The notes under the pieces were generated by a model that saw nothing but the letters and a program-made list of their open reading frames with translations, was not told the DNA's origin and searched no databases. This document shows, piece after piece, positions 1 to 24,248 of a stretch of 29,092 nucleotides of DNA. Position 1 is the stretch's first letter, and each line of letters begins with the position of its first letter. This stretch comes from a virus. The stretch lies in the IMG/VR virus record IMGVR_UViG_3300000101_000103, positions 1 to 29,092 of that record, one strand, 5' to 3'. The position numbers were made by a program, and so were the translations under genes.

Positions 1-121
1 TAGTTACCATTTTAGGCTCGTCGGCAAATTGCGGTAACTCAATACCTACAATGTAAATGTCTTGAATGTCAGTATCTAATACCGCATTCGCAATCTGGTT
101 TTGGAGTTCTTGTTTATTCAT
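1..121 (-). CDS. Partial hypothetical protein, cut by left edge
   Basis: An open frame starts with ATG at 121 and runs off the left edge. About 40 residues are visible, beginning MNKQELQNQIANAV and continuing through IQDIYIVGIELPQF. I do not recognise the family. A TATATTTG promoter lies at 148-141 and leaves a leader of roughly 15-20 nt containing AATGAG before the ATG. The gene is leftward, as is the helix-turn-helix gene just to its right, but it has its own promoter. Start choice is fairly safe because of that promoter; function is unknown. Confidence 0.6.
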   Translation of the reverse strand, partial: MNKQELQNQIANAVLDTDIQDIYIVGIELPQFADEPKMVT

Positions 122-140
122 ATCTCATTGTTTTGAGGTA

Positions 141-148
141 CAAATATA
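141..148 (-). promoter_or_regulatory. TATATTTG -7 element
   Basis: Perfect match to the Bacteroidota TAnnTTTG -7 box, followed by TACC, about 20 nt upstream of the ATG at 121. It lies in the gap between the partial gene and the end of the helix-turn-helix gene. No convincing TTTG -33 box was found. Confidence 0.6.
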
Positions 149-159
149 CAAGCCTTTAT

Positions 160-444
160 TTAACTTACAAGTTTTTCCACATTTTTATATAAAGTTTCTT
201 CTCGGATGTTCGCTATCTTCATAACCTCGTGCTTTGTAAACCCTTCTTCCATCTTCTCTGTTATCAACACTACTACAATAGCATCCCTTATTTTCTTCAA
301 TGTTTTGCGGCTAACAATAGCCTTACCACTTATAGCGTGACTGAATGTAGGTAGTGCCACCCCTGCTATCTTTGCAGCCATACTCTTACCTCCACCTCTA
401 GGTTGTAGCTTTTTAGCCAACTCTTGAACTTCTGTAATTAACAT
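160..444 (-). CDS. Small helix-turn-helix DNA-binding protein
   Basis: 94 residues. Residues about 15-55 (GGGKSMAAKIAGVALPTFSH, then AISGKAIVSRKTLKKI) have the pattern of a helix-turn-helix of the Cro/C1 or XRE type: a short helix, a glycine turn, a recognition helix with TFSHAISGK, then a stabilising helix. A second helical segment near the C-terminus (FTKHEVMKIANIREETLYKN) also looks HTH-like. It is transcribed divergently from the rightward accessory block, with a 56-nt gap holding facing TATATTTG promoters, which suggests a regulator of that block, of itself, or of both. The -7 box ends four bases before the ATG, so the message may be leaderless. The regulatory role is inferred from domain and position. 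Confidence 0.65.
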   Translation of the reverse strand: MLITEVQELAKKLQPRGGGKSMAAKIAGVALPTFSHAISGKAIVSRKTLKKIRDAIVVVLITEKMEEGFTKHEVMKIANIREETLYKNVEKLVS

Positions 445-448
445 AGTA

Positions 449-456
449 CAAATATA
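449..456 (-). promoter_or_regulatory. TATATTTG -7 element of the HTH gene
   Basis: Minus strand reads AATAGATTATATTTG then TACT and the ATG at 444. The same 15-base string occurs at the promoters at 17759 and 27745. The spacing puts the expected transcription start at or next to the ATG, so a leaderless mRNA is likely. Confidence 0.65.
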
Positions 457-488
457 ATCTATTCTATTTTACGTTAAATAAATATGTT

Positions 489-496
489 TATATTTG
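489..496 (+). promoter_or_regulatory. TATATTTG -7 element of the rightward block
   Basis: Perfect TAnnTTTG box, followed by CATC and the GTG start at 501. It faces the promoter at 449-456. The expected transcription start is about at the GTG, which again suggests a leaderless message. The nine bases 500-508 (CGTGAAACA) differ by one base from the CGTGCAACA operators near 27.7 kb, but they also overlap the start codon, so this may be chance. Confidence 0.6.
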
Positions 497-500
497 CATC

Positions 501-794
501 GTGAAACAATTAAAAACAGTAATTATGATTCTGCTATTGTCGGCCCTCGTATTCCTTGCCTTGCTGCTTTTCGGATGCAAAGATCACACGCCACCCATCA
601 ACTATCAAAGCCAACTGGATAGCCTAAGCGGAGTAATTGCCATTAAGGATAAGATTATTGAAAGTATGGTTAATGACTTGGATAGTTTGATTGAGTTAAA
701 AGAAAATGTGAGGTATGTGCAAGGTAAGAAAATAATAATTTACAGAACAACACCAACTCCAGAACGTTTAACACAATTTGCAGAACGATTATGA
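501..794 (+). CDS. Small lipoprotein (possible spanin component)
   Basis: 97 residues starting with GTG. The N-terminus MKQLKT plus a long hydrophobic stretch ending LLFGC is a lipoprotein signal peptide, with Cys26 as the likely lipidated residue. The GTG start is preferred to the ATG at 525 because only it supplies the positive n-region. The mature part (LDSLSGVIAIKDKIIESM and on) is heptad-like, hence coiled coil. It overlaps the next gene by four bases (ATGA). A lipoprotein followed two genes later by a coiled-coil membrane protein resembles o-spanin/i-spanin pairs, but the lysis cassette appears to be at 3.0-4.0 kb, so superinfection exclusion or another envelope role is also possible. 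Confidence 0.65.
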   Translation: MKQLKTVIMILLLSALVFLALLLFGCKDHTPPINYQSQLDSLSGVIAIKDKIIESMVNDLDSLIELKENVRYVQGKKIIIYRTTPTPERLTQFAERL

Positions 795-1012
795 GCCACC
801 TAACAATGCAGCAACTAGAAGATTTAGGGTTTGAAGTTGCCAAATCAAAAAACGAATATTTTAGGATAGTTCAATATCGAAAAAAGGGTAATATATTAGT
901 TGAAACAGTTTGGCGTGAAAGCGGTGAATTTATATCTCAACGTTTATACTTGGAAAAAGTTACCTTAAATATCGAAAAACTCCAACAACTTGATAAACTA
1001 ATAAACAAATGA
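791..1012 (+). CDS. Hypothetical protein, 73 residues
   Basis: Small protein starting MSHLTMQQLEDLGFEVA. The pattern of a short helix, then alternating strand-like segments (YFRIVQYRKKGNILVETVW), then a helix with LNIEKLQQLDKLINK suggests a compact alpha/beta fold. It resembles small proteins common in Bacteroidota phages but I cannot name a function. It overlaps both neighbours by four bases, so the three genes are translationally coupled in one operon from the promoter at 489. Confidence 0.6.
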   Translation: MSHLTMQQLEDLGFEVAKSKNEYFRIVQYRKKGNILVETVWRESGEFISQRLYLEKVTLNIEKLQQLDKLINK

Positions 1013-1452
1013 AACAACTAATAAGAAAATCGGTATTTTCGATAATACTCATATGCAGCCTATCTGCACAAGGGCAAATAATATTTGAGATTAACGATAA
1101 AAAAGCCACAATAGTGCCATCGGTTACTTATGATACTGCCGTTTGCTTATCCCTTAACCAAATGGATAACATTATGATTGAACTATTAAAATGTGATAGC
1201 ATTGCAGAAGTATCCAAAATAAGCGATTTACAGCTATCTAAATACAAAAGCATAGTAAGTATGCAGAATGAGCAAATAAGTGCCGCAAAAGCCGCTATAT
1301 TAACCGCTAAAAACTTTAACAAGGCTTTGCAAATAGATGTACGGGAGCTTACCGCAGAAAACGAAACAACAAAAAGGAAATTAAACCGAAATAGAAAAGG
1401 CTTTATTGCCGCTTCGCTTGTTGCGGTTGTGGAGCTTCTTTTTTTATTATAA
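1009..1452 (+). CDS. Secreted/anchored coiled-coil protein with C-terminal membrane segment
   Basis: 147 residues. The N-terminus MKQLIRKSVFSIILICSLSA is a signal peptide, probably cleaved near AQG. A long coiled coil follows (about residues 60-125; SKISDLQLSKYKSIVSMQNE and the stretch after it). The C-terminus GFIAASLVAVVELLFLL is a membrane segment preceded by basic residues RKLNRNRKG-like. This topology fits an envelope-spanning protein. The last codons (LFLL and stop) lie inside a 27-bp direct repeat that recurs at the end of the Mom-family gene 720 bp downstream, so the original C-terminus may have been altered by cassette insertion. Function unknown; spanin-like is one option. Confidence 0.6.
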   Translation: MKQLIRKSVFSIILICSLSAQGQIIFEINDKKATIVPSVTYDTAVCLSLNQMDNIMIELLKCDSIAEVSKISDLQLSKYKSIVSMQNEQISAAKAAILTAKNFNKALQIDVRELTAENETTKRKLNRNRKGFIAASLVAVVELLFLL

Positions 1453-1463
1453 CGTACAAGTAT
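1437..1463 (+). repeat. 27-bp direct repeat, left copy, flanking the Mom cassette
   Basis: Positions 1437-1463 match 2157-2183 at 26 of 27 bases; the first 22 are identical. Both copies encode the same C-terminal LFLL plus TAA and then enter the attC-like element. The two copies are exactly 720 bp apart and bracket the Mom-family gene, which is the arrangement expected for an inserted or recombined cassette. Confidence 0.8.
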
Positions 1464-1500
1464 AAGGTGCGTTTTAATGCACTTTATACGTTGTTGTGTG
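1450..1500 (+). other. attC-like site A (stop codon plus inverted repeat)
   Basis: Starts with TAACGTACAAG, in which TAA is the stop of the preceding gene. An 11-bp stem follows: GTATAAGGTGC at 1460-1470 pairs with GCACTTTATAC at 1479-1489, with one G-T pair and an 8-nt loop GTTTTAAT. It ends with GTTGTTGTGTG. TAAC at the left and GTT at the right resemble the R-box ends of integron attC sites, and the inner arms resemble L boxes. There is no T-tract, so it is a poor intrinsic terminator. The attC reading is an inference from layout and from comparison with sites C and D. Confidence 0.5.
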
Positions 1501-1527
1501 ACGAAGTGAACAGTTAAAAAAGACAGG

Positions 1528-2172
1528 ATGAGCAAAAGCAAATTTCATATTTTAAGTATTGATAGTTACCAAACTTATGACTGGCTACTACATAAACATT
1601 ATGCCAAACGAATACCAAGTATTTCTTTTGCTTTTGGATTGTATGATGAAAACAACATAATGCAAGGGATAATAACTTATGGAAAACCTGCTTCTCCAAG
1701 TTTATGTGATGGTGTTTGCGGTGTTGAAAATAGGGATTACGTTTATGAGTTGAATAGACTTTGTGTAAATGATGGATTGCCTAAGAATACACTTTCTTTT
1801 TTTGTAGCTCAAAGCTTGAAATCTTTACCACCATTGATAATTGTTTCATATGCTGATACTGCCCAAAATCATAATGGCTACATTTACCAGGCTACAAATT
1901 GGATTTATACAGGTGCAACAAAAGAAAGAACCGACATAGGTAGTGAAGATGGTAGTCATAGTAGACATTATGATAAAAACATAGATTACACAAAAAATAG
2001 AAAGTTTAGAAGTAGTAAACACCGTTATATAAACTTTACTGGAACTAAAAAGCAAAAGAAATACTGGCGTAATTGCTTAAAATATGAAATTTGCGATTAT
2101 CCAAAAGGCGAAAACATTAGGTATGATGCAAGCTATAAACCAAGCGTACAGGCTCGTCTTTTTTTATTATAA
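1528..2172 (+). CDS. Mom-family DNA adenine modification protein (GNAT-like), copy 1
   Basis: 214 residues. The pattern matches the phage Mu Mom family: KHYAKRIPS with His24-Tyr25, ELNRLCV at 74-80, LPKNTLS, SYAD at 107-110, and GYIYQATNWIYTG at 117-129. Mu Mom converts adenine in phage DNA to a methylcarbamoyl form that resists host restriction; that activity is known for Mu and inferred here. The start at 1528 has a purine-rich GACAGG upstream. The gene sits alone between attC-like site A and a half site, bracketed by 27-bp direct repeats, so it looks like a cassette acquired separately from the second Mom-family gene at 21.2-21.9 kb, from which it is strongly diverged. The basic C-terminal half (KKQKKYWRN and around) could contact DNA. 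Confidence 0.75.
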   Translation: MSKSKFHILSIDSYQTYDWLLHKHYAKRIPSISFAFGLYDENNIMQGIITYGKPASPSLCDGVCGVENRDYVYELNRLCVNDGLPKNTLSFFVAQSLKSLPPLIIVSYADTAQNHNGYIYQATNWIYTGATKERTDIGSEDGSHSRHYDKNIDYTKNRKFRSSKHRYINFTGTKKQKKYWRNCLKYEICDYPKGENIRYDASYKPSVQARLFLL

Positions 2173-2183
2173 CGTACAGGTAT
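2157..2183 (+). repeat. 27-bp direct repeat, right copy, with attC-like half site B
   Basis: Second copy of the repeat at 1437-1463. It contains TAACGTACAGGTATA, the left half of an attC-like element, with TAA at 2170-2172 as the stop of the Mom-family gene. Unlike sites A, C and D no matching right arm follows; the sequence diverges after 2183 and the next ATG is at 2207. It may be a truncated site left by recombination. Confidence 0.7.
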
Positions 2184-2206
2184 ATGAATAGTAAAAATTA
2201 CGACTT

Positions 2207-2446
2207 ATGAAAACAAAAGATAATAAATGCGATAAAGGTTGGCACACAGGAAAGTGTTGCTGTAATTGTAAAAACCAAATTGAATTATTTAAACACCCGT
2301 GTAACAAAGTAAATAAAGGTGCAATAAATGAAAGTACAGGAATGTATGCTTGTATAGTTCAATTTGATTTTGATGGAGAACAGAAAGGTGTAATATTTGA
2401 AAAGCAACACGGATTTTGTGAAATGCACGTAAGCCATTGTAGGTAA
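2207..2446 (+). CDS. Small cysteine-rich, probably metal-binding protein
   Basis: 79 residues with Cys at GKCCCNCKNQ, HPCNK, MYACIV, HGFCEMH and a final SHC. The clusters CCxC, HxC and CxMH could bind zinc. Similar cysteine-rich small proteins are widespread in Bacteroidota genomes and phages but have no known function. The start follows CGACTT; its TAA stop (2444-2446) is the first base group of attC-like site C. It forms a one-gene cassette between half site B and site C. Confidence 0.65.
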   Translation: MKTKDNKCDKGWHTGKCCCNCKNQIELFKHPCNKVNKGAINESTGMYACIVQFDFDGEQKGVIFEKQHGFCEMHVSHCR

Positions 2447-2496
2447 TGTTGAGTATAAAAAATCGTTTTAATGTTTTTTATACAATGTTAGCACCC
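2444..2496 (+). other. attC-like site C (stop codon plus inverted repeat)
   Basis: Starts TAATGTTGA with the stop of the preceding gene. A perfect 10-bp stem follows: GTATAAAAAA at 2453-2462 with TTTTTTATAC at 2474-2483. The loop holds CGTTTTAATG, the same ten bases as in site A, where they span the loop and closing pair. It ends AATGTTAGCACC. The shared loop and shared GTATAA...TTATAC arms make common descent of A and C likely. As with site A, a plain terminator is a weaker explanation because no T-tract follows the stem. Confidence 0.5.
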
Positions 2497-2553
2497 GTTT
2501 TTTTGTTTAAGTAGAATTATTTTAAAAATATTTATACTTTTTTTATTAAAAAG

Positions 2554-2584
2554 TTTGTAGGTATAAATATTTGTTGTATCTTTA
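2554..2584 (+). promoter_or_regulatory. Bacteroidota-type promoter inside the cassette block
   Basis: TTTG at 2554-2557, 19 bases, then TATCTTTA at 2577-2584, matching the Bacteroidota TTTG-N19-21-TAnnTTTG consensus in all but the last base. The start codon of the next gene is 26 nt downstream at 2610, with a purine-rich AAACAAAGAAA in between. It gives the last cassette its own promoter. Confidence 0.65.
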
Positions 2585-2609
2585 CACTATAATTAAAAAC
2601 AAAGAAATT

Positions 2610-2807
2610 ATGACAACTCAAGAATTAAAAGAAACAGTAGCTCAACTAAAAGGATATAATGTAGTTGATGTAGATTTTCAAGTAAACACTTTTACAACAG
2701 ACAAAAAATGTGTTTATGCTTTTGATTTAACAAAAAAAGGATTATTAAAAGCTAACTCAATTAAGTTTATGTGGACTGTGGCTAATTTTCAAAACTGCTC
2801 TTACTAA
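2610..2807 (+). CDS. Hypothetical protein, 65 residues
   Basis: Begins MTTQELKETVAQLKGYNVVD. The ATG at 2610 is chosen over an in-frame TTG at 2571 because the TTG lies upstream of the -7 box of the promoter at 2554-2584. The product is a small alpha/beta protein with a strand pattern VVDVDFQVNTF and YAFDLTKKG. Not recognised. The stop TAA shares its last A with the ATG of the following gene, so the two are coupled. Confidence 0.6.
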   Translation: MTTQELKETVAQLKGYNVVDVDFQVNTFTTDKKCVYAFDLTKKGLLKANSIKFMWTVANFQNCSY

Positions 2808-2986
2808 TGAACGAAAACATAATAATACTAACCAACGGAGAATCCTACGAAGCGTGGGGTTCTCTCGTTGAGTTGTGTAAAGTCAAAGGATTTAGTCACA
2901 ATTATTTGAAGCGTTTAAAATATCCGTTTGAGTATAAAGGGTTGAAATTTATTCGTGTGCCGTTTCGGTCTTCAAATGGGTGCTAA
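2807..2986 (+). CDS. Hypothetical small protein, 59 residues
   Basis: ATG at 2807 overlaps the previous stop; TAA at 2984-2986 is embedded in attC-like site D. The protein runs MNENIIILTNGESYEAWGSL to a C-terminus RVPFRSSNGC. The central WGSLVELCKVKGFSHNYLKR has the helix-turn-helix spacing of a small DNA-binding or regulatory protein and is followed by a strand-rich YEYKGLKFIRVPF-like tail, a pattern common in small Bacteroidota phage proteins. The DNA-binding idea is tentative. Confidence 0.6.
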   Translation: MNENIIILTNGESYEAWGSLVELCKVKGFSHNYLKRLKYPFEYKGLKFIRVPFRSSNGC

Positions 2987-3045
2987 CGCCAGTATATGCC
3001 TAAGCTCTGCGACCCGTTAGGGTTAGGTATATACTATGTTATACA
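2984..3045 (+). other. attC-like site D (best example)
   Basis: CTAAC at 2983-2987 (containing the TAA stop) faces GTTATAC at 3038-3044. Inside, AGTATATGCCTAA (2991-3003) pairs with TTAGGTATATACT (3023-3035) over 13 positions with one G-T pair. The spacers between outer and inner boxes are unequal (GCC on the left, AT on the right), leaving an extra unpaired base as in folded attC hairpins. The 19-nt apex contains a small CCC/GGG stem. The right arm overlaps, antisense, the true end of the endolysin reading frame (stop at 3034). Confidence 0.55.
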
Positions 3046-3192
3046 TCGAATATACTTATCCTCTATCAAGTTATTTTTTTCAGCATTGTACCGGCTTAAC
3101 AATACCCTCCAATGTGCTGCACCTTTAATAGTAAAGTGGGGTAAATCCCACTTTTTTCCGTTGGTTATAAATCCGTTTACCCATCCACGCTT
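3034..3192 (-). pseudogene. Endolysin C-terminal part in the -1 frame
   Basis: The frame one base back from the endolysin is open from 3192 to a TAG at 3034. It encodes GWVNGFITNGKKWDLPHFTI and then AHWRVLLSRYNAEKNN. PHF is the missing third zinc-ligand motif of M15 peptidases, and the W-LL-YN tail is typical of Bacteroidota phage endolysins. Joining residues 1-118 of the upstream part to the glycine before WVNG gives 168 residues, the usual length. The simplest reading is a one-base deletion (or read error) near 3181-3192, where both frames are open. Confidence 0.75.
3133..3157 (+). terminator. Probable intrinsic terminator of the rightward block
   Basis: AAAGTGGG (3133-3140), loop GTAAAT, CCCACTTT (3147-3154) and a T-run to 3157. 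This would stop rightward transcription before it enters the leftward structural genes. The same bases on the other strand encode part of the frameshifted endolysin C-terminus (KKWDLPHF), so the hairpin does double duty or is partly fortuitous. Confidence 0.55.
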
Positions 3193-3539
3193 TCAAATAC
3201 TTTGGTTACTTCCAACCAATCGGAAACGCCATCTCTATCTCCATCTCTTTTAGTATCCCAACTCGCCTCCTCAAAAATGCCATCGCCATTTTTATCGTAT
3301 AATAGCACTATGTCAAATGCTGCTCCGTAATTGTGGTAGCTTTGCCCTGCTTTTGCATTGGTTACTTTTGGTCTTTTTAAATAGAGTGCATCCTGCTCTG
3401 CAAATGTCCTTAGCGTGTGGCTAAATCTTAACCTTACCCCTTTACCTAAAACATTATTTGCCGCCGTATAATCCTCTCGCAGCTTATCTCTTAAGCTAGG
3501 GTGCATTAACTCAATTCTTTCTAAACTTATTTTATCCAT
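3177..3539 (-). CDS. M15 peptidase endolysin, frameshifted (N-terminal part)
   Basis: 120 residues as read. RFSHTLRTFAEQDALY followed by KAGQSYHNYGAAFDIVLL is the M15 (D-Ala-D-Ala carboxypeptidase-like / L-Ala-D-Glu peptidase) signature, with zinc ligands His69 and Asp76 in SxHxxGxAxD. The enzyme would cleave peptidoglycan peptides for host lysis. The frame stops after KVFESVDG, before the PHF motif with the third zinc ligand, which is found in the overlapping -1 frame (3034-3192). As annotated the enzyme would be inactive. It is the last gene of the leftward structural run and follows holin-like and coiled-coil membrane genes. Confidence 0.8.
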   Translation of the reverse strand: MDKISLERIELMHPSLRDKLREDYTAANNVLGKGVRLRFSHTLRTFAEQDALYLKRPKVTNAKAGQSYHNYGAAFDIVLLYDKNGDGIFEEASWDTKRDGDRDGVSDWLEVTKVFESVDG

Positions 3540-3543
3540 AAGC

Positions 3544-3819
3544 TTATTTCAACCCACTAAATTTCTTGCAATTTTCAAGTTCTTTTCGAACTGCACTAAG
3601 GTCTATATGTAAAACCTTAATTTCTTCCTTCATTTCTGAAAATTTAACGTTAGCATCCTCGACAAAGGTTTTATAGCTTTCTTGCATTTTCAGAATTGCA
3701 TCACCTTCTGTTACCGATGCGGCTGCATTGCTGTTTCTTCTGCCGAAAAACCAACCCGTACCACCGCCTACTATTGCGGTTACTACGTTATCAATTATAG
3801 AGTTAAAATCAAAAGCCAC
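3544..3819 (-). CDS. Small membrane/coiled-coil protein next to endolysin
   Basis: 91 residues. Residues about 5-26 (SIIDNVVTAIVGGGTGWFFG) form one N-terminal membrane segment followed by basic RR. The rest is a long charged coiled coil (YKTFVEDANVKFSEMKEEIK and on). One membrane segment plus a coiled coil beside an endolysin fits an i-spanin-like or holin-accessory protein. Family not firmly recognised. The gap to the endolysin is 4 nt and to the upstream gene 2 nt. Confidence 0.6.
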   Translation of the reverse strand: MAFDFNSIIDNVVTAIVGGGTGWFFGRRNSNAAASVTEGDAILKMQESYKTFVEDANVKFSEMKEEIKVLHIDLSAVRKELENCKKFSGLK

Positions 3820-3821
3820 TA

Positions 3822-4016
3822 CTAATTACCGTTTCTTTTATTGTATTCTTTATAAGCCAAATAAACACCTCCTGCCATTATAGCAAACAGAAATAACCCA
3901 CCTGCCAATGTACCCTCTACTGGTGTAAAAATTAACACCACTACCAATACTGCAAATAGCACGAATACAAATGCCAAAGCGTTAAGACTAAATAGTTTGT
4001 TAAATAAGTTTTTCAT
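3822..4016 (-). CDS. Holin-like small membrane protein
   Basis: 64 residues from the ATG at 4016 (MKNLFNKLFSLNALAF), which is chosen over an in-frame upstream start at 4046 because it gives a basic N-terminus and smaller overlap with the upstream gene. Two membrane segments are visible: ALAFVFVLFAVLVVVLIF and GTLAGGLFLFAIMAGGVYLA, then a basic tail KEYNKRNGN. Two segments, small size and position before the endolysin fit a class II holin, inferred from context. Confidence 0.55.
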   Translation of the reverse strand: MKNLFNKLFSLNALAFVFVLFAVLVVVLIFTPVEGTLAGGLFLFAIMAGGVYLAYKEYNKRNGN

Positions 4017-4377
4017 AAATTTCAAAATTAATATAAATCGAAGCAAGAAAGGCTATAATCCAAGCCGTCACTCGCAAATTGTTTGGTATCTCCCTGTTTA
4101 TCTTGTCTGTTTCTGAGTCGTCAATTCCGTCACCTAGATAGAAGATGTCACGTTTCGCAAACCACCCATATCCAATATCAAAGAACGCCACTCGCAAACA
4201 AAAATAAGTTACCGCTCCCCAATAGTGTCCTATCAATAAACCTTGTATCTCTGCAAGTAGGAAAACTGCAAGCAGAACCATATCGCTTTTGAAGTCGTGC
4301 TTATTGCCAAACTTCAAGTCGTGAAACAGGTGTGCCGCTAACAAAAGAATAAGTGATATGTATAGTAATAATGTCAT
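4000..4377 (-). CDS. Membrane protein, 125 residues
   Basis: Starts MTLLLYISLILLLAAHLFHD. Hydrophobic segments lie near residues 2-17, 33-50 and 103-118, with a soluble loop FAKRDIFYLGDGIDDSETDK between the second and third. Proteins of this kind are common in Bacteroidota phage late regions but have no assigned role. It overlaps the next gene downstream by 17 nt and the gene upstream by 4 nt, so it is part of one translational chain toward the lysis genes. Confidence 0.55.
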   Translation of the reverse strand: MTLLLYISLILLLAAHLFHDLKFGNKHDFKSDMVLLAVFLLAEIQGLLIGHYWGAVTYFCLRVAFFDIGYGWFAKRDIFYLGDGIDDSETDKINREIPNNLRVTAWIIAFLASIYINFEIYEKLI

Positions 4378-4598
4378 TGTTCTAATACCTCTTGTATTTC
4401 TATTTGCTCAGTTTCACCTAAAATATCTGATATGCTCGCATCTTCTGTTATGTACCAAAAGCTATCGCCTTCATTTATTCCTACCCAATGGAGTGTCGTG
4501 CCACCTTCCTTTGGCAATCCATAAACGTCATCACACTGCTTTTGTGCTGCCTCTGCTGCTTCTAAAGTGTTATATTTATATCCGTTAATAAATGCCAT
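4374..4598 (-). CDS. Hypothetical protein, 74 residues
   Basis: Soluble, acidic protein beginning MAFINGYKYNTLEAAEAAQK. The motif GTTLHWVGINEGDSFWYI has aromatic residues at strand-like spacing. Such small proteins often follow the receptor-binding gene in these phages. No function assigned. It overlaps the lectin-like gene upstream by 14 nt. Confidence 0.55.
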   Translation of the reverse strand: MAFINGYKYNTLEAAEAAQKQCDDVYGLPKEGGTTLHWVGINEGDSFWYITEDASISDILGETEQIEIQEVLEQ

Positions 4599-5448
4599 AG
4601 TAAGAATTTATATTTGTTTCTATTGCCGCACGGTTTGCACTTTGATTTGTGGTGTAAATAATCAATTCTTGCATTTGCCCACCTAAATGCCCATAACTAT
4701 TGCCCGTACCTATTTCACTTGTTCCAGTACTTGTTAAATCTGCCGTTGTAGTTAGTGCAGATAATGTTTCTGGCAAATACATATTTATACCGCTACTGTC
4801 ACGAGCAACACTTATTATTTGTTGTGTTGCATAAGTACTTGATGTGTTTATTATTGCATCACCCGTTCCTGTATCTCTTGTCTGGAATTGGTATTTTCCA
4901 TTTATTACACCTACACCCATATTCCCATCTAAAGCCCCGTTTCTTTTTTGAGTTATACCGCCCGTTTCAGAAGTGTTTACATTTTTAGTTACACAGAAAA
5001 TATTTAAATCCTTTGTACCGTAAAAATCATTAGGCAAACTTTGAGAAAAGCTATCATTTGTCCCATCAAAGACTATTGATGATTTACTATTAAGACTTAA
5101 TACGCTCCCACTACTTACTATTTGAGGTTGATTTGAAGCAGTTGATTGCGTTGCATTTCTCCCAGTGTTTCCGCTTTGGTCATACCAAGTAGTCACAAAA
5201 CCATCACCTACACCGCAAAAAGTTAATAAACTTGCCGTATCTAATGCACCACTTACAAAGCCTATGTCACTCTCTGCATTGTCGCTGCTTCGCCTTACTC
5301 GTATTGCACTCCCAGCATACGCACTCCTAAGCAACCGCAAACTATAAGCAGCCGCAGCACTCGTGTACACGTCGAGAGGTGGAGTAAAGGGTAAACCGCC
5401 TCCACCTCCACCCTTTATAGTTCCGTATTGATAGCCGTATCCGTACAT
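4585..5448 (-). CDS. Putative receptor-binding / lectin-like tail protein
   Basis: 287 residues. A glycine-rich N-terminal linker (GGGGGGLP, residues 14-21) is followed by AAYSLRLLRSAYAGSAIRVR, DIGFVSGALDT, TTWYDQSGNTGRNATQ and QPQIVSSGSV. These are hallmarks of the alpha-L-arabinofuranosidase B catalytic-like / concanavalin-type jelly roll found in many Bacteroidota phage tail and capsid decorations. The C-terminal half (QMQELIIYTTNQSANRAAIE) matches the end of LamG-type folds. A role in binding host surface glycans is inferred; enzymatic activity is not established from sequence. Confidence 0.65.
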   Translation of the reverse strand: MYGYGYQYGTIKGGGGGGLPFTPPLDVYTSAAAAYSLRLLRSAYAGSAIRVRRSSDNAESDIGFVSGALDTASLLTFCGVGDGFVTTWYDQSGNTGRNATQSTASNQPQIVSSGSVLSLNSKSSIVFDGTNDSFSQSLPNDFYGTKDLNIFCVTKNVNTSETGGITQKRNGALDGNMGVGVINGKYQFQTRDTGTGDAIINTSSTYATQQIISVARDSSGINMYLPETLSALTTTADLTSTGTSEIGTGNSYGHLGGQMQELIIYTTNQSANRAAIETNINSYYGIY

Positions 5449-5726
5449 TATCTATTTTTAACCGCAAAACAATCCCCTGCAACTGGCGTAACTTGTGCTA
5501 AGTATGCACCACTTTGTGAGGCTATAATCATCCCCGTTTTAAGCTCAACTGAGCTTGTTAGGTTTGATTGCGTTAACACGTTGTTCCCGTCTGTATCTGT
5601 AATCGCTGAGAACTTAGCCGCTGCGTTTACTACTAAATAACTTATTTTGTCAGCAGCAGTAAATGTTTTAGCACTTGAAACGTAGTACTGACCTCCTTTG
5701 CTTAATTGTAATTCTGATTGTGTCAT
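5448..5726 (-). CDS. Structural-region protein, 92 residues
   Basis: Begins MTQSELQLSKGGQYYVSSAK. The ATG at 5726 is preferred over an upstream in-frame start at 5777 because it lies 8 nt behind the conserved GGTACATT octamer and does not overlap the upstream gene. The sequence is strand-rich with few charged clusters (MIIASQSGAYLAQVTPVAGD), compatible with a small virion or baseplate protein. It abuts the receptor-binding candidate (shared base at 5448), so it may attach or assemble that protein. Not recognised. Confidence 0.55.
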   Translation of the reverse strand: MTQSELQLSKGGQYYVSSAKTFTAADKISYLVVNAAAKFSAITDTDGNNVLTQSNLTSSVELKTGMIIASQSGAYLAQVTPVAGDCFAVKNR

Positions 5727-5734
5727 CTTATATA

Positions 5735-5742
5735 AATGTACC
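5735..5742 (-). promoter_or_regulatory. GGTACATT late motif, copy 1
   Basis: GGTACATT 8 nt before the ATG at 5726, preceded by a run of A. One of five copies with nearly fixed spacing before structural-gene starts. TACATTTA resembles a degenerate TAnnTTTG box, so it may be a late promoter with a leaderless or near-leaderless transcript. Confidence 0.6.
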
Positions 5743-5749
5743 TTTTTTT

Positions 5750-6220
5750 TTAATTTGATATTGTCGGGATTAAACACCGATTATAATTGTAATTTGAATT
5801 TATTGTGAAACTGACAAACGCACCAGAATAAAGAGAATTAAAACGTTCTTCAAATGGTGTAATTAGCCAATTTCTATTAATCTCTATGTTTAGCGTTTTA
5901 TCGTCCGCAAATTGTGAATAGTCATAAGCATTCAAGTAATTAATCAGATCCGAACAAATTAAAATACATTCATTCATTACGTCCTCTGCATTACTTGGTT
6001 TTAGCTCAGTTACTTGCTCCATAAAAAAAGCAGTAAGATTAAACGAAATGCCATTAGGGTCAATCCCTGACAATGTATCTAAACTCCATAACATTTGAAC
6101 TCCGTCAACTTGTTGTGTAGAATCTACATCATAAGGCGTTCCCCTTAGTATCTCCCGAACTTGGCCGTGATTGCTCTGGAACTGGTTTAATACTGATATT
6201 ATGTTTTTTAAAGTAATCAA
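5750..6220 (-). CDS. Probable head-tail connector / neck protein
   Basis: 156 residues if started at the TTG at 6220 (MITLKNIISVLNQFQSNHGQ). The pattern of an N-terminal helix with F-x-x-H-x-Q, then TPYDVDS, and a later NAEDVMNECILICSDLINYL helix resembles a small neck or completion protein that often follows the connector gene in Bacteroidota phages. The TTG start is uncertain, but the N-terminal pattern supports it. Another small frame (6129-6272) overlaps its 5' end. Confidence 0.55.
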   Translation of the reverse strand: MITLKNIISVLNQFQSNHGQVREILRGTPYDVDSTQQVDGVQMLWSLDTLSGIDPNGISFNLTAFFMEQVTELKPSNAEDVMNECILICSDLINYLNAYDYSQFADDKTLNIEINRNWLITPFEERFNSLYSGAFVSFTINSNYNYNRCLIPTISN

Positions 6221-21134: not shown

Positions 21135-21205
21135 GCGGTATTGGTGTAACGGTTGCACGCTTGACATTCCAGTCAAGAGGTAAAGTTCGAATCTATTATA
21201 CCGCT
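21135..21205 (+). tRNA. tRNA-Gly(TCC)-like gene, divergent arms
   Basis: A 71-nt cloverleaf. The acceptor stem GCGGTAT/ATACCGC is perfect (7 bp), followed by T as discriminator. D arm GTGT/GCAC with an AACGGTT loop. Anticodon arm CTTGAC/GTCAAG gives loop ATTCCA with U33, anticodon TCC and A37, one base short of the usual loop (or eight bases if the last pair opens). G1-C72, C35, C36 and U73 are glycine identity elements. The T arm TTCGAAT loop is normal but its stem has only 3 of 5 pairs unless an A is bulged. No CCA is encoded. It overlaps the 3' end of the Mom-family gene antisense by 33 nt. Confidence 0.75.
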
Positions 21206-21862
21206 CTTTTTTCTTTCGGCTAAACTTATTTTTTTGCCCTTATACATTCCTGCACCTTGTTTATCTATTTCGCTAAATGGTAATATTGGAACAGTTATTT
21301 TGCAAGTTTTGTCAATTAGGTAAATGTATTTTAATTGCTTTCCTTTAAATGGTTTCCAATTTTTAAACTCGATACTCATTTTTAAATGGTGTGCTTGTAT
21401 AACGTGCATTGCATCTCCAGTTTCTGGATTCATTCTTAAAGCGGTATTGTCTACAATTCCAACTAATTTAAAACCACTTGCTCTATAAATAGTACCATCC
21501 CCGCACTGAGTGCCGTCAGCAAAACTTATTATCCATTTTATTTGTGGTGCATTCTTTTTAATTAATTTAATACTAATTGCAATACATCTACTTTCTGAAT
21601 ATTTTGGTAGGTAATCATCAAAAGCCATTCTGTTTAATTCAATAAACTCATTCCAACCCGTACCATCTACAAGATTAATAGTTCCTTTTTTATTTATGCT
21701 TGGACCATATTGCATAACACCGTGCAATTTATTATCTAAAAAACAACCAAAATGCAATGTGCTATTTGGAACTACTTTACCGCTATAATGATGCTTTTTT
21801 ACAAACTCATTAGCAACCTTAGCTGGTATTACTTTTACTATTATATCTTTTGCTCTGCCCAT
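21173..21862 (-). CDS. Mom-family DNA adenine modification protein, copy 2
   Basis: 229 residues. KKHHYSGKVVPNS (His24/His25-Tyr26), FGCFLDNKLHGVMQYG, ELNRMAFDDYLPKYS at 75-89, SFADGTQCGDGTIYRASGF at 113-131 and the basic C-terminus follow the same order as Mu Mom. The role is probably to modify adenines in phage DNA against restriction. It overlaps the ParB-like gene upstream by 22 nt, so the two are co-translated, just before packaging genes. The last ten codons (SGIIDSNFTS) are antisense to the tRNA and are probably not conserved. It differs strongly from the copy at 1.5-2.2 kb. Confidence 0.75.
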   Translation of the reverse strand: MGRAKDIIVKVIPAKVANEFVKKHHYSGKVVPNSTLHFGCFLDNKLHGVMQYGPSINKKGTINLVDGTGWNEFIELNRMAFDDYLPKYSESRCIAISIKLIKKNAPQIKWIISFADGTQCGDGTIYRASGFKLVGIVDNTALRMNPETGDAMHVIQAHHLKMSIEFKNWKPFKGKQLKYIYLIDKTCKITVPILPFSEIDKQGAGMYKGKKISLAERKKSGIIDSNFTS

Positions 21863-22630: not shown

Positions 22631-22846
22631 TTAACTATTTTCTTTTAAATACTTTATAACCTTGTTAGCGTTACGAGCTATGCAATCACCGCAACTTAAA
22701 TCAACTCTAAACTGGAACATTGATTGACACCACTTTTGAAATTCCTTAGCTTCGTGAGGTTCAAACCTTAGTTCTTGAGATTTGTCAAACTCCATTAGTT
22801 TGTTTATTACTTCCTTAGATAGTTTCAAATCTTGTTCGGTTTTCAT
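22631..22846 (-). CDS. Hypothetical protein with CGDC motif, 71 residues
   Basis: Begins MKTEQDLKLSKEVINKLMEF. The C-terminal FRVDLSCGDCIARNANKVIK has a CxxC pair that may bind metal. Related small proteins occur near the terminase in Bacteroidota phages. Its start overlaps the end of the fusion gene by 32 nt, a long overlap for this genome, so the ATG at 22846 is likely but not certain. Confidence 0.55.
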   Translation of the reverse strand: MKTEQDLKLSKEVINKLMEFDKSQELRFEPHEAKEFQKWCQSMFQFRVDLSCGDCIARNANKVIKYLKENS

Positions 22847-24248
22847 TTTTAAGTCTGTAATTCTTGGTTATATACTCGTGCAAACTTGCTGCCGTGTCAT
22901 TGACTGCATTTTGATTTTTAGCGAAGTACTTTATCATTTTATGCCATTCGGTATTGTTCGCTTTCAATCCGTTTTCTAAATGTTTGATGTGTTGCTTGTA
23001 TGGAAATACATTGGAAACTATAACCGCTTTCCCTTTTTGCCCTGCTTCGATTATCTTTAATTCAGATTTAAATGAGTTAAATTTATTATCAATTAGAGGC
23101 ACTAATACAATACCGTGATTATTAAATGTGTTGCCGTACTCTGTTAATGGCTCAAAAGGCTTTAAATTAGCTTTTGGAAACATCTTAGGCATATAATGTG
23201 ATTTTGGTATGTAACAATAAATAGTAAAGTCAACATCTTGTATCGCATCTTTTAATATTGATAAGTCACGCTTATGAGTTATACCTCCAGCCCACATAAA
23301 ACTATTTGTGTTTTCTGTTTTGTTCCACTGATCTTCATCTGAATCTAAGCAATTTTTAACCACGTGGACATTAGGATTAATCTTCATTATTTCGTCTTGC
23401 AGTCGCTTAGTTGCACACCATACAACATCAGCTAATTGAATGTTAGATTGAATGCAATTATTAAAATTTGTTTTCAAATGAAAATTGTATAAAAGATGAT
23501 TTTTTGGAACTTCCCAGTAATCATCAATGTCGCAGATTATTCTTATCCCACGTTTACGGAGTAAAGATATAACCAACTCAGGCTGCATCTTGCTCGATAT
23601 GTTACGGTTGAAGATAACGTGAGTTGTGTCTTTTGGCAGTTTGTCAATCCATTTATCAGCTTCGTTTCCTTCTGTTTGCGTGCCTATAATCTTAACATCT
23701 GATCCGTAAGCATTGGCAAAGTGGTGCATAGGAATAAACAGTCTGTGGTATTCAACAGCTTCAAAATTTGGCAATAATACAACTATATTCATTTGATTGT
23801 ATATCTTTTTAAACTCCTCCTTTGCTGCATTTATTCCATTTGCTACGCTCATATAGTTAATATTTGTTTTTGTTGCTATCCCTCTGTAACTGTCATTCTT
23901 GTAAAGCTCTAATAATCCACGTGAGTAGAAGTGCATTTTATCAAGTGTCCATTGCACTCGGTCTTTTCGCTCTTCAAAAGTAAAATCATTTTCTTCATCA
24001 AATAAATCATCTGGCAATTCTTGAAATGTTTTTGCGTTTCGTTGCTCTTTGAAATAGGTAAACTTCATCATTACAAAAAAGTATTGTCGGAGTTTGCCCA
24101 TTTGGATAATTTTTTCTATTTTGTCCTTCTTACTTAAACATTCTACCACGCACTTTGATATTAACTCCTCAGCATCGTTTCTATCTCCCGTTACCTTTTC
24201 AGCGTAACGCAATAGACCATCATCAGAATAAACATCTTCTAACCTCAA
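22815..24248 (-). CDS. Sigma-70-like domain fused to GT-B glycosyltransferase
   Basis: 477 residues with two unrelated parts. Residues 1-152 resemble an ECF-type sigma factor: region 2 with LLRYAEKVTGDRNDAEELIS, then YFFVMMKFTYFKEQRN, and region 4 with VQWTLDKMHFYSRGLLELYK and YRGIATKTNINYMSVANGIN followed by a basic helix. Residues 153-477 start at an internal Met (ATG at 23792) with MNIVVLLPNFEAVEYHRLF and run through RIICDIDDYWEVP, ADVVWCATKRLQDEI, MWAGGITHKRDLSI and HGIVLVPLIDNKFNSFKSEL, a group-1 type GT-B glycosyltransferase. The sigma part could direct phage promoters; the transferase could sugar-modify DNA, virion or host surface. Internal initiation at 23792 could also give the transferase alone. 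Confidence 0.7.
   Translation of the reverse strand: MRLEDVYSDDGLLRYAEKVTGDRNDAEELISKCVVECLSKKDKIEKIIQMGKLRQYFFVMMKFTYFKEQRNAKTFQELPDDLFDEENDFTFEERKDRVQWTLDKMHFYSRGLLELYKNDSYRGIATKTNINYMSVANGINAAKEEFKKIYNQMNIVVLLPNFEAVEYHRLFIPMHHFANAYGSDVKIIGTQTEGNEADKWIDKLPKDTTHVIFNRNISSKMQPELVISLLRKRGIRIICDIDDYWEVPKNHLLYNFHLKTNFNNCIQSNIQLADVVWCATKRLQDEIMKINPNVHVVKNCLDSDEDQWNKTENTNSFMWAGGITHKRDLSILKDAIQDVDFTIYCYIPKSHYMPKMFPKANLKPFEPLTEYGNTFNNHGIVLVPLIDNKFNSFKSELKIIEAGQKGKAVIVSNVFPYKQHIKHLENGLKANNTEWHKMIKYFAKNQNAVNDTAASLHEYITKNYRLKNENRTRFETI

Follow-up and report, generated by a model that had tools for sequence, protein, structure and literature searches.

Integron gene cassettes closed by compact attC sites in a phage of probable Flavobacteriia hosts

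The window, that is, the whole 29,092-base stretch of viral DNA analysed here (identical with IMG/VR record IMGVR_UViG_3300000101_000103), very probably carries integron gene cassettes that form a CALIN, a group of at least two close attC sites with no integrase; the phage would infect Flavobacteriia-like hosts, and the recombinase would be supplied in trans. The genomic evidence demonstrates that the sites are attC, where the cassette ends lie, that cassettes are exchanged among related phages, and that in the hosts this attC type is physically linked to a recombinase. Three sites (A, C, and D) lie within 1.6 kb, and a Phage_integrase search of the record gave no match and no tyrosine recombinase (the record may be incomplete), so that the definition of a CALIN is fulfilled, in keeping with the sequence-only reading, which had seen no integrase. 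A complete integron, with intI and attI in the phage, is not found by these data, the record containing no integrase and attI not having been identified; it is inferred from the missing integrase that recombination must occur in trans. Genes for terminase, portal, tape measure, helicase loader, and methyltransferase are all present in the record, and its portal most closely resembles that of the Nonlabens phages P12024S/L, from which we infer a probable host within the Flavobacteriia. An Rfam scan found one tRNA only and matched no attC family. A 477-aa ORF (22815-24248, minus strand) has an N-terminal match to a sigma-factor family (E 4e-6) and a C-terminal match to a phage glycosyltransferase family (E 1e-56).

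The motifs from which the attC reading started were found where the sequence-only reading had placed them. By direct reading and in the ORFs, the stop codons at 1450, 2170, 2444, and 2984 lie within TAAYG-N-RGTATA; the decamer CGTTTTAATG common to sites A and C occurs exactly twice (1470-1479 and 2464-2473); and the GTT-type boxes are GTTGTGTG (1493-1500), GTTAGCAC (2487-2494), and GTTATACA (3038-3045). Site A (1447-1500, plus strand) overlaps the stop codon of a backbone gene of unknown function (1009-1452, plus strand, 147 aa), the only viral relative of which in our scan belongs to the sister phage L491 (74% amino-acid identity), and consists of R'' (TTATAAC, 1447-1453), L'' (1460-1470), the apex CGTTTTAATG, L' (1479-1489), and the R' box GTTGTGTG. 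Site C (2441-2494, plus strand) ends in the R' box GTTAGCAC, with an inferred crossover at G2487/T2488, and site D (2978-3045, plus strand) comprises R'' GGGTGCTAAC (2978-2987), the stem AGTATATGCCTAA / TTAGGTATATACT, and the R' box GTTATACA. The order R''(...AAC)-L''-L'-R'(GTT...), with the stop codon at R'', is realized in full in A and D, and C has AAT in its R''. The R' consensus GTTRRRY is not met by the three boxes (GTTGTGT, GTTAGCA, and GTTATAC), the element family fitting GTTRNNN instead, and the L stems of A, C, and D contain no extrahelical base, asymmetry being confined to the parts between R and L boxes. Thus, the attC form recognized in the sequence-only reading holds, not as the textbook attC but as a compact Bacteroidota type with apex CGTTTTAATG; by strict textbook criteria, they are variants of attC that fall outside the narrow consensus but that, on the genomic evidence and without a recombination assay, behave like attC.

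A covariance model (R1), built from 38 dissimilar ungapped elements all lying outside the window, provided the check by which the attC identity was to be judged. Over all 29 kb, it matched exactly A (48.7 bits, E 4e-11), C (63.7 bits, E 2e-15), and D (22.3 bits, E 1e-3), on the plus strand only, the next match having an E value of about 1.6-2; the modest score of site D counts against the attC reading. In the L stem, 98.7% of cells are paired and five pairs show double changes, and the element stems contain 72 double-change cells versus 35 after shuffling. A test that separates attC from other hairpins follows from the arrangement of integrons, in which the sequence 3' of the crossover G is already part of the following cassette and is complementary to the R'' of that same cassette. 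R' should therefore match the R'' of the following site and not its own. In 48 neighbouring same-strand pairs of sites, the summed run of R'(n)/R''(n+1) pairing was 128 versus 40 after shuffling (0 of 5000 shuffles as high), and the pairing of R'' with R' within one site, outside AAC/GTT, was barely above chance. Sites C and D obey this rule over ten bases (GTTAGCACCC / GGGTGCTAAC); R' of site A does not pair with R'' of site C and matches no R'' nearby.

Between C and D lies the one clean cassette of the window (2488-3038, plus strand, 551 bp), the 5' end of which (G/TTAGCACCC) is complementary to its own R'' GGGTGCTAAC, a property that the A-to-C stretch does not have. Its leader contains, by direct reading, a promoter-like TTTG-N19-TATCTTTAC (2554-2585, plus strand), resembling the -33/-7 promoter consensus of Bacteroidota, followed by a 65-aa ORF (2610-2807, plus strand, direct reading) and by a 59-aa ORF (2807-2986, plus strand) with ten viral relatives of up to 100% identity, which is the conserved last gene. 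Five further phage contigs of IMG/VR (L593, L594, L595, L596, and L602) contain the same cassette; in all of them it starts at TTAGCACCC and stops at GGGTGCTAAC and the upstream attC is a different one with apex TTTTAATG, and mean identity is 0.92 and 0.89 inside these ends and 0.72 and 0.59 outside them. Most of the five carry a different middle gene, in the slot of the 65-aa ORF, between the constant leader with its promoter and the 59-aa gene, so that the cassette is itself modular and, judged from the sequence, may be likened to a docking frame for variable genes. In L491, homology to the window runs to 1451, is interrupted, and resumes at 2984, both points being R'' boxes, with 80-87% identity outside the differing segment. 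Between the equivalents of these points, L491 contains one other small cassette, the first ten bases of which (GTTATAGGGC) pair at 10/10 positions with its own R'' (GCCCTATAAC), while the hairpin and R' of site D are conserved. The search for other genes between the same elements in related phages was therefore successful, and together with the R1 matches and the occurrence of C-D between other elements in five contigs it supports the attC identity that the sequence-only reading had merely inferred; in all six phages, the breakpoints of the exchange fall at the recombination core. The DNA of cassette C-D has no match in the collection of isolate phages searched, so that the evidence for exchange rests on metagenomic contigs. 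The empty site in sister phages is predicted to read ...TTTTG/TTATACATC.

The stretch from A to C is of a different nature. It contains a gene for a Mom-like DNA modification protein (1528-2172, plus strand, 214 aa; Pfam Mom, E 2.7e-34; phrog_1384, E 1e-57) and a 79-aa ORF of unknown function (2207-2446, plus strand) with one viral relative (L592, 77%), separated by the half site B (2170-2184, plus strand), which by direct reading consists only of R'' and GTATA, was missed by R1, lacks a returning arm, and is nearly identical over about 26 bases (26-30) to the left half of site A. A blastn search of window positions 1-6000 against isolate phages returned relatives of Mom only. The idea that Mom is a general cassette gene was rejected, an attC-like element lying downstream in only three of the 51 Mom relatives examined. 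A second Mom-like gene occurs in the phage backbone (21173-21862, minus strand; phrog_1384, E 1.5e-47), and a tRNA-like gene of unclear anticodon on the opposite strand (21135-21206, plus strand) overlaps its end. From A to C, Mom, the 79-aa gene, and half site B make up an older composite that has partly decayed and that the cassette reading does not explain; from the half site, and from the R' of A having no nearby R'' match, the Mom stretch has probably been rebuilt by homologous recombination and decay. Hence, the four-gene cassette series of the sequence-only reading is reduced to C-D, and four intact cassettes are not present. A left half attC with a similar short leader (around ACGAYTTA) also follows the cassettes in L594, L595, and L602, as at window positions 2170-2206, as if the right halves of attC were repeatedly lost after cassettes.

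Such decay, seen in half site B, in the AAT of site C, and in the failed pairing between A and C, together with the missing integrase, is what would be expected if the sites were fixed relics, an old integron fragment still carried in the phage after exchange had ceased. We regard this as improbable, although it cannot be put aside lightly, since L491 differs at exactly this locus and intact C-D cassettes lie behind a different upstream attC in other phages.

It is far less likely that the hairpins serve as transcription terminators or mark gene ends in some other way, with the genes between them shuffled by homologous or illegitimate recombination. They do come after stop codons, and the A/B repeat of about 26-30 bases suggests some homologous recombination. 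The folding of single-stranded DNA is also compatible with such structures, the top strand being no less stable than the bottom one: in comparison with shuffled sequences, the top strand folds better for A, C, and D, and the bottom strand better for A and C and weakly for D, no bottom-strand preference being shown for these three sites. However, no T-run is found 3' of the stems, and terminators would leave unexplained both the pairing of each previous R' with the next R'' and the homology that starts exactly at G/TT and ends at R'' in several phages.

The CALIN reading is further strengthened by the distribution of the elements. A search pattern derived from sites A and C matched at least 120 stretches in IMG/VR and at least 117 in GTDB genomes, the cellular matches listed with a full element being mostly from Bacteroidota; the element is thus common among Bacteroidota phages and genomes. 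A few pattern matches in Staphylococcus and Clostridia were discarded as chance, the element layout there being different. For 15 genomes to which element-bearing loci had led, the best matches to integron integrases fit the XerA/integron-integrase model NF040815, the cut-off of which was passed by five of six recombinases tested, and remain below the TIGR02249 cut-off. In these best matches, profile positions of about 180-240, corresponding to the IntI-specific domain, are unmatched, and the recombinase has about 22 residues where IntI4 (PDB 2a3v) has about 65, indicating that it lacks the additional domain named as defining for IntI (Ghaly et al. 2022, PMC9668308). By a simple attC scan made for this analysis, 84 attC sites were counted near 32 recombinase genes, 78 of them on the 3' side, in convergent orientation; the scanned loci contained 93 sites versus 5 in shuffled sequence, only 6 were counted over 362 kb around other Xer-like genes of these genomes, and neighbour pairing at the recombinase loci was 228 versus 41 shuffled. 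On a finished Flavobacteriales chromosome (CP051243; L265:7543-16127), about ten attC sites, most with long terminal loops, form a tandem array with the recombinase, at L265:15027-16127, convergent at its 3' end, 0.5 kb from the last site, and one CGTTTTAATG site lies inside the array, which is the strongest reason for calling the phage elements attC. The role of this recombinase as the enzyme acting on the phage sites is an inference that rests on linkage alone. A reading of the elements as palindromic repeats or small transposons (REP/MITE-like) of Bacteroidota with no relation to integrons, suggested by the many copies and the conserved core, merits the least credence of all, because R'' and R' of one site mismatch and instead match those of neighbours as in cassette junctions, and because the sites occur between genes as arrays, next to a recombinase and in the company of long attC with the same boxes.

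The nearest relatives of the recombinase in IMG/VR are likewise at the 3' end of arrays, here codirectional (220 of 232 sites; 52 of the 62 loci with room), with a neighbour pairing of 856 versus 248 shuffled. A T4-type portal is encoded in five of 20 such records, a portal family absent from 14 control genomes, and a terminase match was found in seven of the 20; Portal_T4 together with terminase phrog_2 settled five large contigs, and Terminase_6 alone left large contigs undecided. The records with a T4-type portal (L632, which is IMGVR_UViG_3300027816_000052 of 256 kb, and L633, L642, L643, and L667) have 3-9 attC-like sites by the recombinase, which is IntI-like, 3' of the array, and in the same direction. 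Judging from the T4-type portal, some large phages appear to carry complete systems and may possess phage-borne integrons, the viral status not being settled for all contigs. We lean towards the view that Bacteroidota and many of their phages share a distinct integron lineage, with an XerA-related, IntI-like recombinase without the IntI-specific domain at the 3' end of the array, complete versions in large T4-portal phages, and cassettes only in smaller ones, phages being a main route of cassette movement.

In the predicted mechanism, a cassette would consist of one or two genes followed by the attC hairpin that closes it, and the initial bases of the cassette (TTRNNN...) would pair with its own R''. 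A tyrosine recombinase, provided in trans by a chromosomal integron of the host or by a co-infecting large phage carrying one, would cut the single-stranded hairpin between G and TT, and the cassette could then be excised as a circle or another inserted. In this manner the phage may draw accessory genes from the integron cassette pool, the A-to-C stretch presumably being an older, partly decayed part. Recombination of single strands and a benefit for the phage are, like the action of the recombinase, inferences in the absence of a recombination assay. If the recombinase is indeed the working enzyme, integron recombination of folded sites does not need the IntI-specific domain, and searches that depend on this domain would have overlooked a large population of integrons. 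For phage biology, this would be a defined and precise route for swapping accessory genes (e.g., for DNA modification) among phages and hosts, and genome pairs ready for testing such swaps exist.

These cassettes are worth comparing with known systems. The sequence-only reading had thought an array without an integrase in a phage unusual; yet integrons or attC clusters have been reported in 21 of 10,705 phages (Qi et al. 2023, PMC9892861), so that a phage attC cluster as such is already known. In that study, IntI1 recombined five of six phage attC sites, including one of Polaribacter phage P12002L. This phage contains at least five elements of the family described here, several of them directly downstream of genes, DNA methylase genes among these; the IntI1-active site was not matched to individual elements of the family. 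Those CALIN phages, P12002L included, likewise have attC-closed cassettes without an integrase, and the P12002L elements are of the same family, whereas the present case adds exchange between related phages, one cassette in six contigs, and the compact type with apex CGTTTTAATG. The IntI integrons (TIGR02249; IntI4, PDB 2a3v) share the R''/L''/L'/R' sites, the G/TT crossover, the tandem arrays, and the recombinase superfamily; the present recombinase, in contrast, lacks the IntI-specific domain, scores below the TIGR02249 cut-off, and stands at the 3' end of the array. Complete integrons are nearly absent from Bacteroidetes, Salinibacter ruber being named, according to IntegronFinder 2.0 (PMC9024848). 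The integrase orientation is likewise atypical in Treponema integrons, in which intI precedes attI and the array (PMC3607928). Here, in contrast, the recombinase comes after the array, being convergent with it in Flavobacteriales but codirectional in large phages. XerA is a chromosome-dimer resolvase, and the present recombinases differ from XerA-type proteins (NF040815) in adjoining attC arrays and, mostly, in having an extra N-terminal region. No paper on the compact attC type, on a domain-less recombinase 3' of Bacteroidota arrays, or on such large-phage systems was found in the open-access literature searched, which is no proof of novelty. Within that literature, three points are new: the compact attC type of Bacteroidota; the exchange of cassettes between related phages; and the association of this type with a domain-less IntI-like recombinase at the 3' end of arrays, on chromosomes of Flavobacteriales as well as in large phages with a T4-type portal.
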